The notes under the pieces were generated by a model. The model was not told the DNA's origin and did no database searches. It saw nothing but the letters and a program-made list of their open reading frames with translations. From the NCBI GenBank assembly GCA_025450375.1, contig JANWHO010000030.1, positions 1 to 5,813 on the forward strand: 5,813 nt of DNA, written 5' to 3'. Shown here piece by piece: positions 1,370 to 5,125 of this stretch. The translations under genes were made by a program, and so were the position numbers. Position 1 is the stretch's first letter. Each line of letters begins with the position of its first letter. Origin of the DNA: Chloroflexota bacterium. GTDB taxonomy: Bacteria; Chloroflexota; UBA5177; JANWHV01.

Positions 1370-1672
1370 TTAGCTACGCTGCTGCCCCGGGCCCAGCACC
1401 CGCACGATCTCGATGTCCGCCTCGCCTCCGTGTGAGCGGCCGTCGGCAATTACGCGATAGATCAAGACATAGCCCCAACGTGAGAGTGGTCGTTCCCGTT
1501 CGCCTTCTACATCCATGTTGGCTTGCCCTACGAAAGGTAGGGTGACCAATCCCTCGGCGGCGCGGAATAACGCACCAACCACTCGTTGGGCCTGCTTGGT
1601 GCTATCGCGCGTATTGTACTCTTGTATAGGTTCAAGGTCGGAGATTGAAGAGTCAGACCATCGGAGGGCCAT
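1370..1672 (-). CDS. ParE/RelE-family toxin of a type II toxin-antitoxin system
   Basis: A complete 100-residue protein, the usual size for ParE/RelE toxins. The pattern is that of the family: an N-terminal strand RWSDSSISDLEPIQEY (residues 4-19), a helical hairpin with AQRVVGALFRAAEGLVTLP (28-46), a linker carrying a basic stretch (ERERPLSRW), a core strand YVLIYRVI (68-75) and a last strand IEIVRVLGPGQQ (87-98). ParE members poison DNA gyrase and RelE members cleave mRNA on the ribosome. The closing I-x-I-x-R-V-L is typical of ParE-like members, but sequence alone does not settle the target. The ATG at 1672 overlaps the antitoxin stop by one base (TGATG). No separate Shine-Dalgarno is visible, so translation is probably coupled to the antitoxin. 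The gene ends in TAA and converges with the DUF1349 gene, leaving a 75-base gap without a clear terminator. Confidence 0.85.
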   Translation of the reverse strand: MALRWSDSSISDLEPIQEYNTRDSTKQAQRVVGALFRAAEGLVTLPFVGQANMDVEGERERPLSRWGYVLIYRVIADGRSHGGEADIEIVRVLGPGQQRS

Positions 1673-1947
1673 CAGTCGCGCGGATGCTCGGCGAACGGCA
1701 CATAGTTCGCCGCAAGCATTCCACGCTCCTTGAAGCGCGCGACCAAGGTCTCATGGTTCTCGAAACGTCCTTCATCCAGGTCACGCTCTCCTTCCTGGAT
1801 CAGGGCAATACGACGGCGTTTGGCGGCAAGATACTCGTCCAGGGCCTCGACCATTAGCTTACTACGGGTTCGGCCACTGAGCTGAGCCAATTCATCGAAG
1901 CCGATCCTTGTTTCGTCGGGTATGCGTAGACTGGTCGCGGTAGGCAT
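1672..1947 (-). CDS. Ribbon-helix-helix (CopG/MetJ/Arc-type) antitoxin
   Basis: A 91-residue antitoxin lying directly upstream of the toxin. Residues 4-12 (ATSLRIPDE) form the DNA-binding beta-ribbon. Residues 15-43 hold the two helices, with the SGRTRSKLMVEALDEYL segment typical of RHH antitoxins. The charged C-terminal half, with QEGERDLDEGRFENHETLV, is the likely toxin-binding arm. RHH antitoxins neutralise the partner toxin and repress their own operon as dimers. The frame stays open up to about 2262, but the longer form overlaps the rhodanese reading frame, contains no recognisable domain and lies upstream of the promoter, so it is rejected. Two adjacent ATGs exist at 1950 and 1947. The Shine-Dalgarno GGAG at 1955-1958 is 4 bases from the first and 7 from the second, so 1947 is preferred; using 1950 adds one Met. 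Base composition is lower in GC than the neighbours. Confidence 0.82.
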   Translation of the reverse strand: MPTATSLRIPDETRIGFDELAQLSGRTRSKLMVEALDEYLAAKRRRIALIQEGERDLDEGRFENHETLVARFKERGMLAANYVPFAEHPRD

Positions 1948-1987
1948 CATCCTTCTCCGATTCGTAGCACAGACGTCGTACAGACCG

Positions 1988-2140: not shown

Positions 2141-2287
2141 CTACCCGGCTCGCGCCGCCCCGGCGGACTTGGGCTCGACCGGATGCGCCGCCCGCCAGGC
2201 ATTGTAGCCGCCCGCGAGCACGGCGGCATCGATACCGCTCGCTTGCAGTTGCCGCGCCACACGGGCGCTGGTAGCCTCGCGTGGTCA
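2141..2287 (-). pseudogene. Second half of the rhodanese domain, in frame after the UGA; broken or recoded
   Basis: Reading through the UGA (2285-2287) in the same frame gives 47 more codons to a TAG at 2141-2143. They encode PREATSARVARQL, then QASGIDAAVLAGGYNAW, then RAAHPVEP and a short Ala/Gly-rich end. This is the expected distal half of a rhodanese domain: the active-site loop, the helix after it, and the closing L-x-GG-x-x-A-W strand and turn. The complete product would be 531 residues. No frameshift or second stop occurs, so the coding signal is fully kept beyond the UGA. Either the stop is very recent (one substitution from TGT or TGC, which fits the Cys expected here), or it is a sequencing error, or UGA is read as selenocysteine. 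The tail has no good start of its own. Confidence 0.75.
2252..2284 (-). promoter_or_regulatory. Candidate bacterial SECIS-like hairpin just after the in-frame UGA
   Basis: On the minus-strand RNA, CC(A)GCGCC (2264-2271) pairs with GGCGCGG (2252-2258): a 7-bp stem with one bulged A and a 5-base loop CGUGU (2259-2263). There are 21 bases between the UGA and the loop, and the second loop base is G. As I recall the bacterial SECIS consensus (short apical loop, G among its first two bases, 16-37 bases from the UGA), this fits. A competing fold pairs CCACGCG (2278-2284) with CGUGUGG (2257-2263). Such GC-rich sequence forms hairpins easily by chance, so confidence is low. Confidence 0.25.
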
Positions 2288-3736
2288 AGTACAGTACGCT
2301 ACCACGGCCCGCGCGCGATCCGCCTTGCTGATCCATGCCTGGATCTGGTCCGACAGCACGCGGACGCTGCCAGGAATCTGACCTTCGTCAGCGTCGTACT
2401 GGGCGCGACTCCGCACATCCAGGACCAGCGGTGGCCGCGGGCCGGCAAGACGTGCCGCCAACTGATCGGGACTGATCCGCGGCACATCGGCCGCCTCCCC
2501 GCGGAACAATCCACCCGCGCTCCCCTCGCGCTCCTCGGGGAGGGTACGATTCGCCCTGGCTACTCCGCGCCCGTACCATTGCGAGAGCGGAGTCGCCGTG
2601 ATCCCATGGGCGATCACGGAGACCAGCACCACCAGGCCAGTGATCGCCAGGAGGCGGTCCCCTTCGGGCAATCCGGCCTGCACCACGAGCAGGATGAGCA
2701 ACAACGAACTCAAGCCGCGCGGGCCAAACCAGCCGATGAAGGCGCGCGCCGTGTTGCTCAGGGTTGCCCGGAAGAAGACCAGCCCGATCGTAAGGGGCCG
2801 GATGAGCCCCAGGGTGATAACCGCCAGCCCCAGGGCCGAGAGCGTATCTACCGTTCCCAACAACTTGGAGAGCGCCGCGCCGAAGAGCATAAAGGTCAGC
2901 AGCATCGCCATCTCGGCGGTGACCGTGCCATAGTCGAGAAAGCAATCGCAGAGCGTCACGTCGAAGACGTTCACGGCGATGCCGGCGAAGAACGCGGCCA
3001 GAAAGCCGTCGCCGCCAACCAGTTGCGCCACCGAATAGGCGGCGAGCACCAGCCCGACCCCATACATGGCCTGGTACTCGCGCCGGATGCCGAGGCGCGC
3101 GTCGGCGCGGCCCATCAACCAGGCGCCGATGCCGCCGACCGCCATCCCCACCACGGGGCTCAGGACCAGCAAGCCGGCGAGAAAGCCGAGCCATCCGGCA
3201 ACCCCGTGCATCGATGCCTGGCGGACCGCGATCAGAATGAGCACGACCGGCAGGACGACAATGTCGTTCATCGCGGCCTCAATGGTGAGCGCGCGGCGCA
3301 CGGGCCGCGGAATGGCCTCATTGCGCACGACATCACGGACTACGATTGGATCGGTCGAGGCGAGGGCGGCCCCCAGGAGCAGCGCCTCCACCCACGAGAG
3401 GGACAGAAGCAGGTGGGCCACCAGGGCCACCCCCAGGAGGGTCAGCACGGTCACCGGACCCAGCGCGAGGAACGGCACGCGCCACTCACGGCGCAGCTCA
3501 TCGACATCCAGGGTGACGGCGTCAAGGAATAGGACCAGGGAGAGGCTGACGGTCGCCAGGGCGTCGAGCGCGGGCGCGCGCGGGCCGATGGCCACGATCC
3601 CCAGCGAACCGCCGCCAAGCGCGAGCCCAAGCAGCAGGAAGAGCATGGGAAAGGAGAGCGGAGCGCGGTCGACAAAACCCGAGCTAAGGGCCGCGCCGAG
3701 CAATACGACCGCGACAAGCGTGATCCACAAGAGCAC
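2285..3736 (-). CDS. CPA1-type cation/proton antiporter with C-terminal rhodanese domain, interrupted by in-frame UGA
   Basis: The frame up to the UGA encodes 483 residues. Residues 1 to about 390 form the membrane part, with roughly a dozen hydrophobic segments. Landmarks of the CPA1 Na+/H+ antiporter family are ASTDP (126-130), the Asn-Asp pair in EAAMND (153-158) that is the expected ion-binding site, and the late FGPRGLSS motif (337-344). It should exchange Na+ or K+ for protons at the cytoplasmic membrane. Residues 421-483 are the first half of a cytoplasmic rhodanese domain: ISPDQLAARL, then LVLDVRSRAQYDADEGQIPG, then VVAYCT, where C482 is in the catalytic position. The UGA comes right after T483, and the second half of the domain continues beyond it. 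The start is GTG 3736 with GGAG at 3745-3748, eight bases upstream; an in-frame TGA lies just above. If the UGA is a true stop the rhodanese half is dead, while the antiporter part is intact. Confidence 0.85.
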   Translation of the reverse strand: MLLWITLVAVVLLGAALSSGFVDRAPLSFPMLFLLLGLALGGGSLGIVAIGPRAPALDALATVSLSLVLFLDAVTLDVDELRREWRVPFLALGPVTVLTLLGVALVAHLLLSLSWVEALLLGAALASTDPIVVRDVVRNEAIPRPVRRALTIEAAMNDIVVLPVVLILIAVRQASMHGVAGWLGFLAGLLVLSPVVGMAVGGIGAWLMGRADARLGIRREYQAMYGVGLVLAAYSVAQLVGGDGFLAAFFAGIAVNVFDVTLCDCFLDYGTVTAEMAMLLTFMLFGAALSKLLGTVDTLSALGLAVITLGLIRPLTIGLVFFRATLSNTARAFIGWFGPRGLSSLLLILLVVQAGLPEGDRLLAITGLVVLVSVIAHGITATPLSQWYGRGVARANRTLPEEREGSAGGLFRGEAADVPRISPDQLAARLAGPRPPLVLDVRSRAQYDADEGQIPGSVRVLSDQIQAWISKADRARAVVAYCT

Positions 3737-3755
3737 GATGATTTCTCCGATGTCA

Positions 3756-3976: not shown

Positions 3977-5125
3977 GTGCGCAGCGCCGACGTGCTGGTC
4001 GTGGGAGCCGGGGTAGTAGGAGCGTTTCACGCCTATCACGCGGCCCAACAAGGGTACTCCGTGCTGCTGGCGGAGCGGAATCCCTGGCCGAACGACGCCT
4101 CCATGCGGAACTTTGGGATTATCGCCCGCTCGATCGTGGAGCCGGGAAGCGTGTGGGACGACTATGCCCGTGACACCCGCGACATCTACAGGGCTATCCA
4201 GCGCGAGCATGATATCACGGTACGGGAAACCGGCAGTCTGTATCTCGCCTCGACCACTCTGGAACGGGCGGTGCTGGCCGAATATGCCACCCAGGCGGAC
4301 AAGGCGGAATGCATGTTCATCGAGGGATCGGAGGCGGTCGCCCGCTATCCCTTCCTGGAGCCGGAGTATTGTCGGGGGGCGCTGCTCTTCCCCCATGACT
4401 TGGGGCTGGACCCACGGCTGATGCTCCAGCAACTGATTCCTTTCCTCGAACGTACGGGCCGCGTAACCTACCTGCCGCGGACCACAATCACCCACCTGGA
4501 GGTGAGCGGTGGGCACTGCCGCGCCCATGACGCGGCGGGGAATCCCTTTGAAGCCGCCCATGTCTTCGTATGCGGCGGGGCCGAGCGCCGCATCCTCTTC
4601 CCCGAACTGTTCACCGATGATGCCATGCGGGTCTGCAAGCTACAGATGCTCCGCACCGTGCCGCAAGTCGATTTCCGCCTCCCGCACCCCGTCCTCTCCG
4701 GCCTTTCGCTCCGCCGCTATCCGGCGTTCAAGTCCTGTCCCTCGCACGCGGCGATGTGCGCCGAGCCGGTGGAGGAGGAACTGACCGCCTTCGACATTCA
4801 CCTGCTGATCAAACAGGAAACGGATGGCACGGTGGTGATCGGCGACTCGCACGAGTACCGGTCGCCCAGCCAGGCGGCGGACCTGGAGGAGCGGACCAAT
4901 CCCGCCATTACCGAGGCCATTCTCCGCTACGCGCGGCGGATGCTCCGCTTACCCTCCTGGCGCGTCGAGGCGGGGTGGAACGGCTACTATCTGGTCCCCA
5001 AGGAGCAGGACAGCCCGCCCCAGACGATAGGTGGGCGCATCCACCTGGCGGCCCCGATCGGCGGTCGGGGAATGACCGTCGGCCCCGGCTACGCCCGCCG
5101 GTCAATCGAGCGCGCGCTGGCCTGA
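3977..5125 (+). CDS. FAD-dependent oxidoreductase, DAO superfamily, resembling the TIGR03364 phosphonate-associated group
   Basis: A complete 382-residue flavoenzyme. The N-terminal Rossmann fold reads DVLVVGAGVVGAFHAY with G10-x-G12-x-x-G15, and E33 at the end of the second strand should bind the FAD ribose. It continues ERNPWPNDASMRNFG (33-47); this S-x-R-N-F-G segment next to the flavin is what suggests TIGR03364 rather than generic glycine or sarcosine oxidases. Residues 150-300 form the substrate-binding half. APIGGRGMTVGPG (359-371) is the C-terminal FAD contact of the DAO fold. TIGR03364 members usually sit in phosphonate gene clusters, and some are reported to oxidise N-alkyl aminoethylphosphonates; no such neighbours are visible, so the substrate remains open and another amine or amino acid is possible. 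It is likely a soluble cytoplasmic enzyme. The start is GTG 3977 with GAGGAAGG at 3962-3969, seven bases upstream. Confidence 0.8.
   Translation: MRSADVLVVGAGVVGAFHAYHAAQQGYSVLLAERNPWPNDASMRNFGIIARSIVEPGSVWDDYARDTRDIYRAIQREHDITVRETGSLYLASTTLERAVLAEYATQADKAECMFIEGSEAVARYPFLEPEYCRGALLFPHDLGLDPRLMLQQLIPFLERTGRVTYLPRTTITHLEVSGGHCRAHDAAGNPFEAAHVFVCGGAERRILFPELFTDDAMRVCKLQMLRTVPQVDFRLPHPVLSGLSLRRYPAFKSCPSHAAMCAEPVEEELTAFDIHLLIKQETDGTVVIGDSHEYRSPSQAADLEERTNPAITEAILRYARRMLRLPSWRVEAGWNGYYLVPKEQDSPPQTIGGRIHLAAPIGGRGMTVGPGYARRSIERALA

Follow-up and report, generated by a model that had tools for sequence, protein, structure and literature searches.

Rhodanese domains with a selenocysteine (Sec) two residues behind a cysteine have been described before. 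In the accessible text of a 2026 review, the NCBIfam family NF041203 is entered as 'rhodanese-related (seleno)protein' and 'rhodanese-like form 3' with the motif CxU (PMC13188914), and a CxU rhodanese is also listed in the accessible part of PMC9312934. The review further contains TsoB (NF045694), a second rhodanese selenoprotein with a fusion-like make-up (rhodanese/DsbD); its description in the review table sets it apart from the protein studied here, with the motif UxxxxU, two Sec residues and a DsbD-like character (PMC13188914). Among transporters, the systems to be compared are the NhaP-type CPA1 antiporters (PDB 4cz8 and 4czb), the potassium/proton antiporters of NCBIfam PRK05326, and the KefC K+/H+ exchanger (8by2 and 8bxg), which combines an antiporter with a cytosolic control domain. 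We take KefC to be a CPA2 protein with thiol-linked gating and a nucleotide-binding-type domain, without rhodanese and without Sec.

The window analysed here, a stretch of 5,813 nucleotides from a Chloroflexota bacterium (contig JANWHO010000030.1), carries on its minus strand a gene for a CPA1/NhaP-type antiporter with a C-terminal rhodanese (2141..3736), as delimited by translation, by Pfam and by homologues that are either full length or end at the TGA. Its frame comprises 531 codons from a GTG start to a TAG stop at 2143-2141, and a GGAG read from the sequence 8 nt before the start (3745..3748, minus strand) is a Shine-Dalgarno-like candidate. A single in-frame TGA, codon 484 (2287-2285), is followed by 47 codons and then the TAG. 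Translation thus confirmed the starting point of an earlier, sequence-only reading of this DNA, namely an in-frame UGA in Y-C-T-UGA-P-R-E-A-T-S, and the residues at the site are V-V-A-Y-C-T-U-P-R-E-A-T-S. Pfam places a Na_H_Exchanger transmembrane domain (PF00999) at residues 15-386 (2579..3694, minus strand; E 3.8e-39, 135.1 bits against a gathering score of 26.2) and, when the TGA is read as a residue, one unbroken Rhodanese domain (PF00581) across UGA-484 at residues 422-516 (2189..2473, minus strand; E 1.4e-12, 48.4 bits against a gathering score of 22.2).

The antiporter part shares its transmembrane fold and sequence kinship with the NhaP and PRK05326 proteins, whereas the rhodanese tail and the Sec belong to the window protein. 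The top PDB folds found by Foldseek were NhaP antiporters such as 4cz8 and 4czb, with KefC also among the matches, and the closest PRK05326 model scored 121.4 bits against a cut-off of 355; the sole PDB sequence match was 3iwh, a rhodanese-like protein. With Cys substituted at position 484, AlphaFold (56 sequences, mean pLDDT 84.9) places residues 482-484 between a strand (478-481) and a helix (485-499), which is presumably where the rhodanese active-site loop sits. By its position, Cys482 (codon 2291..2293, minus strand), invariant in alignment A1 and present in all 22 loci described below, would be the rhodanese active-site cysteine, and we assume its catalytic role from what is generally held for the rhodanese family. 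Over the rhodanese part, the best NCBIfam match was NF041203 (rhodanese_LYCAU) with 80.6 bits, or 76.6 bits for the rhodanese part alone, against a cut-off of 115, and the domain therefore appears related to that family without being a member by the cut-off rule. Both are rhodanese domains with Cys-x-Sec, and the Y-C-x-U motif of NF041203 is present here as A-Y-C-T-U (the L-Y-C-A-U of the family being our assumption, taken from its name LYCAU); the NF041203 model, however, has 126 positions, whereas in the window protein the domain forms the C-terminal end of an antiporter.

The UGA at 2285-2287 is almost certainly a selenocysteine codon, because the UGA is conserved, a SECIS hairpin follows it, the distal half of the domain is constrained, Sec and Cys are exchanged at the site, and Sec machinery is found in relatives. 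The protein search gave 7998 scored candidates, 2813 of them at E 1e-20 or better, and the figures that follow are drawn from the best 120 of these 2813. Apart from the window's own product, 68 of the 120, with lengths of 453-489 residues, end exactly after Y-C-x, which is the pattern that a gene caller stopping at a UGA codon would leave, the stop codon itself being visible only for those genes that fall within a genome locus. In 50 others Cys continues the protein at the site, and the rest are P0016, which is unclassifiable, and P0002, which is the window's own product. Most of the Cys-type homologues shown read Y-C-T-C-P-D-E, which bears out the motif YCxCPxE that the sequence-only reading had expected, with a Cys at the place of the UGA. 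Source names of the protein matches include Chloroflexota, Ktedonobacterales, Herpetosiphonaceae, Anaerolineae and Caldilineaceae.

At the DNA level, matches were present in 10 of 47 genomes of one class (1e-30) and in 23 of 400 genomes of the phylum (1e-60), the ten all being among the 23 carriers. The HMMER search of the phylum had the TGA inside the match in 14 of the 23 places, and of the 9 matches that ended before the site, 7 were extended across it by tblastn. Loci reaching the site hence come from 21 of the 23 carriers, and together with the window the aligned codon is TGA in 22/22, with the distal rhodanese half kept in each. Outside this count stand G001 and G070, whose matched contig ends before or about the site (a second G070 contig has a rhodanese frame with TGA and hairpin), and also L001-L004 and L020, where the match ends before the site or is to another protein. 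The codons before the TGA are Y-C-T except in L017 (W-C-T) and L010 (Y-C-A), and the loci fall in two deep subfamilies, at 53-77% and 36-40% identity. As judged from these aligned loci, conservation of the TGA is far beyond chance. A recent TGC or TGT to TGA nonsense mutation or a sequencing error, truncating the protein, had been thought perhaps likelier a priori in the sequence-only reading, and Cys-coding relatives do exist, including P0003 at 76% identity; but the same TGA stands in 22/22 loci with the distal half kept, and both a hairpin and a synonymous constraint lie downstream, so that we rejected this explanation and give it practically no weight. A base error at the TGA is likewise very unlikely because the TGA and the downstream hairpin are both conserved.

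The codons downstream of the UGA look selected as protein. Raw pN/pS was 0.36 for the window against L014 over the downstream codons outside the hairpin, and for the distal half it was <0.5 in all nine pairs compared. Were the UGA a true stop, a 483-residue antiporter would be the working product and the conserved downstream piece would function solely at the RNA level or as a peptide made on its own, which would fit an antiporter domain (residues 15-386) that ends well before the UGA and the gene callers that stop there. However, the distal half behaves as in-frame protein by its pN/pS, the rhodanese domain is continuous across the UGA, and the Cys forms read straight through, and on these grounds a true stop was rejected as highly improbable.

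A putative bacterial SECIS apical hairpin, GCGCC-CGUGU-GGCGC, lies at 2254..2268 (minus strand). It has 5 bp and a 5-nt loop, starts 16 nt after the UGA with its apical loop beginning 21 nt after it, and covers nucleotides 19-33 when the T of TGA is counted as 0. The full stem (5/5 pairs) is present in 22/22 loci, with compensatory changes in two (A-U replaces G-C in L010, U-A replaces C-G in L024) and a G-U pair in L013, and in 2000 synonymous-codon shuffles a full stem was found in a mean of 1.58 of 22 rows with a maximum of 7, although the hairpin counts are not independent because the loci are related and L021-L023 are near copies. No rival hairpin (5-6 bp, 3-8 nt loop, from -90 to +110) was complete in >9/22 loci. 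Moreover, synonymous identity was 1.00 at codons +6, +7, +9 and +10, where 0.23-0.36 was expected, and the serine at +6 was AGC in 22/22 loci despite the existence of six serine codons.

In the accessible text of PMC13188914, the bacterial SECIS model has a loop of 3-9 nt, a stem of 4-16 bp, a G at loop position 1 or 2, a distance of 16-37 nt between UGA and loop, and an MFE of -7.5 or lower. The hairpin of the window agrees with this model as given there, having a 5-nt loop CGUGU, 5 bp, a G at position 2 and 21 nt, and when bare its energy of -7.6 kcal/mol is within the limit; in 3/22 loci (L010, L013 and L024) the bare hairpin, at -5.5 to -6.4, is weaker than -7.5. The lowest-energy fold of the 47 nt downstream in the window (-21.2 kcal/mol) is another helix, and enforcing the hairpin gave -15.5; the hairpin is part of a lowest-energy fold in 15/22 loci, the window being among the seven exceptions. 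Folding of the 53 nt from the UGA on was not unusual (z -1.39, with 21/200 shuffles as good), and an Rfam scan of the window returned only mir-1227 at chance level (E 7.7).

Sec machinery was counted in the 23 related carrier genomes, as distinct from the window's own genome, and the search for selA, selB, selC and selD that had been proposed earlier found these genes in the carriers, though not every gene in each. Matches to selA occur in 21/23 carriers at 1e-60 (G001 and G335 not among them) and in 1/14 control genomes, E. coli. For selB, 19/23 carriers were over the cut-off and 20/23 matched at 1e-40, many of the matches being confined to roughly the first 350 of the 581 positions, and 11/14 controls matched with 2 over the cut-off. 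For selD, 20/23 carriers were over the cut-off (controls 4/14, 2 over cut-off); 16 of these 20 matches have an in-frame TGA, and they probably encode a Sec-containing SelD. A tRNA-Sec was matched in 18/23 carriers (RF01852 at 1e-9), ARAGORN reading 18/18 as tRNA-SeC with anticodon tca, and in 3/14 controls, Thermus composti among them; at 1e-3 RF01852 is useless as a test, because it matched all 400/400 genomes (344 over cut-off) and 13/14 controls (5 over cut-off). All four components occur together in 13/23 carriers, including G018 (a single 5.07 Mb contig) and G036 (with an 11.3 Mb contig), and 10/23 are without at least one. Since selA is over the cut-off in 320/400 Chloroflexota genomes, a phylum that by this count is rich in Sec users, the machinery supports the Sec reading but does not discriminate.

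Five carriers (G002, G009, G312, G070 and G095, the last being the nearest relative) have the antiporter gene and selA/selB and no tRNA-Sec match at 1e-9, perhaps through incomplete assemblies or an unusual tRNA; of 13 stretches examined, ARAGORN was run on the 10 that come from genomes without tRNA-Sec and found none there. These five carriers would fit a UGA read as some other amino acid, through a suppressor tRNA or a reassigned code. Against this, TGA is the stop codon of four other window genes (at 647, at 1294, at 5125, and the RHH gene at 1672-1950, minus strand), and wholesale reassignment is therefore unlikely, a point already made in the sequence-only reading. In addition, the SECIS-type hairpin is present in 22/22 loci, Cys is the alternate residue, and sel genes occur in the relatives, so this explanation was rejected as well and seems to us very remote. 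The conserved TGA, the hairpin and the sel genes in relatives support the remaining proposal, a Sec adjoining a catalytic thiol (C-x-U).

As for the surroundings of the gene, a ParE-like toxin gene (1370-1672), which ends in TAA, and the RHH (CopG-like) gene (1672-1950, minus strand) overlap by one base just downstream of the antiporter gene and are a probable toxin-antitoxin pair. A DAO-family FAD-dependent oxidoreductase (3977-5125, plus strand) is divergent from the antiporter gene and had no match in the 17 related stretches examined. When six window proteins were compared by tblastn with these 17 stretches, which represent 14 genomes, no shared neighbour emerged that would back the functional proposal below; the test is a weak one, most stretches having just 1.5 kb of flank on each side.

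The exchange of Sec and Cys was followed on a tree made from the residues before the site only, with 90 Sec-type and 50 Cys-type rows; it was built by a quick method with SH-aLRT only, a warning of long branches was given, and three rows were omitted, namely P0001 and P0002, both of them the window itself, which is represented by a single row of its own, and P0016, whose end is garbled. The Sec/Cys state requires at least 4 changes on this tree, compared with a shuffled mean of 41, and 0/500 shuffles were as low. One separate clade consists of 46 Cys rows, and the Cys rows P0003, P0020 and P0048+P0063 are nested inside Sec clades, so that there are at least four switches between the Sec and the Cys form, the tree being silent on gain versus loss of Sec. 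P0003, a Cys-type protein of 531 aa that is 76% identical and nested among Sec forms, is a probable Sec to Cys change. Hence both kinds of relative sought at codon 484 in the sequence-only reading exist, the TGA forms at every locus reaching the site and the Cys forms as a separate clade plus three nested groups. Among the 400 phylum genomes, with the best three candidates per genome scored, there was no Cys-type gene, and a second phylum search with a Cys-type query gave matches only in already-known genomes and no Cys-type DNA.

The Sec-bearing rhodanese is apparently not confined to the antiporter. NF041203 gave 71 matches at 1e-8 in the 23 carriers and matched 6/14 controls, with 0 over the cut-off in either set. 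The best 23 of the 71 have one in-frame TGA each, and they are 20 antiporter loci, one G070 contig and two short separate frames in G249 and G335. Among the remaining 48, a TGA is present only in a partial G335 antiporter match, 2 have TAA and 45 have no stop. The two short rhodanese frames, L184 (G335:C337:19271-19600) and L186 (G249:C29:110236-110571), read Y-C-T-UGA-P and carry the same GCGCC/GGCGC hairpin as the antiporter gene, so that the Sec-rhodanese unit of coding sequence and SECIS would also exist outside the antiporter. They apparently represent free-standing Sec rhodaneses in antiporter-carrying genomes.

In the proposed mechanism, which follows the standard bacterial pathway, SelA and SelD would make Sec-tRNA-Sec and SelB would deliver it by binding the hairpin at 2254-2268, allowing the ribosome to read UGA-484 as Sec. 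The product would be a 531-residue CPA1/NhaP-type antiporter with the rhodanese active-site loop Cys482-Thr-Sec484, whose Cys/Sec pair may take up sulfane sulfur or an oxidant, forming a persulfide or selenenylsulfide. In other antiporters, KefC among them, gating is done by cytosolic domains, and a Cys-Sec pair on an antiporter-tethered domain suggests that ion exchange is controlled by redox state or by sulfane sulfur. The idea that the Cys/Sec state gates the ion/proton exchange of the transmembrane part is tentative, and we are rather doubtful about it. Termination at UGA-484 would leave the whole transmembrane antiporter intact, and this led to the further idea, compatible with the Sec reading, of a selenium-dependent switch with two functional products, the full-length Sec form when selenium is plentiful and a 483-residue antiporter ending in half a rhodanese domain when selenium is short, so that selenium supply would set the ratio of the two. 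If true, the short form would be without a working rhodanese domain, and the Cys-Sec pair of the Sec form would sense reactive sulfur or oxidants and gate cation/proton exchange. However, 50 of the 120 best homologues carry Cys and produce the full form only, and we consider both the selenium-tuned antiporter and the functional dual product unlikely.

To the sequence-only reading the analysis adds the SECIS hairpin, the breadth of the conservation, and the likeness to the CxU rhodanese selenoprotein family. The main text of PMC13188914 has no antiporter, exchanger, sodium, potassium or PF00999, the accessible part of PMC9312934 has no mention of 'antiporter', and the main text of PMC12013277, which reports nine new families, contains neither antiporter nor rhodanese; an antiporter selenoprotein was likewise absent from the titles and abstract openings listed, although the words selenoprotein, rhodanese and antiporter do occur together in PMC11097638. 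The CxU rhodanese selenoprotein is already known, and its fusion to an antiporter was not met in the accessible review text or in these titles and abstract openings. The Sec reading would add an ion antiporter to the selenoproteins and would tie ion/proton exchange to the redox chemistry of selenium and sulfur. Moreover, for 68 of the 120 best homologues the public record probably stops prematurely at the Sec codon, and the coexistence of Sec and Cys forms would offer a natural comparison of what selenium contributes to a rhodanese domain.
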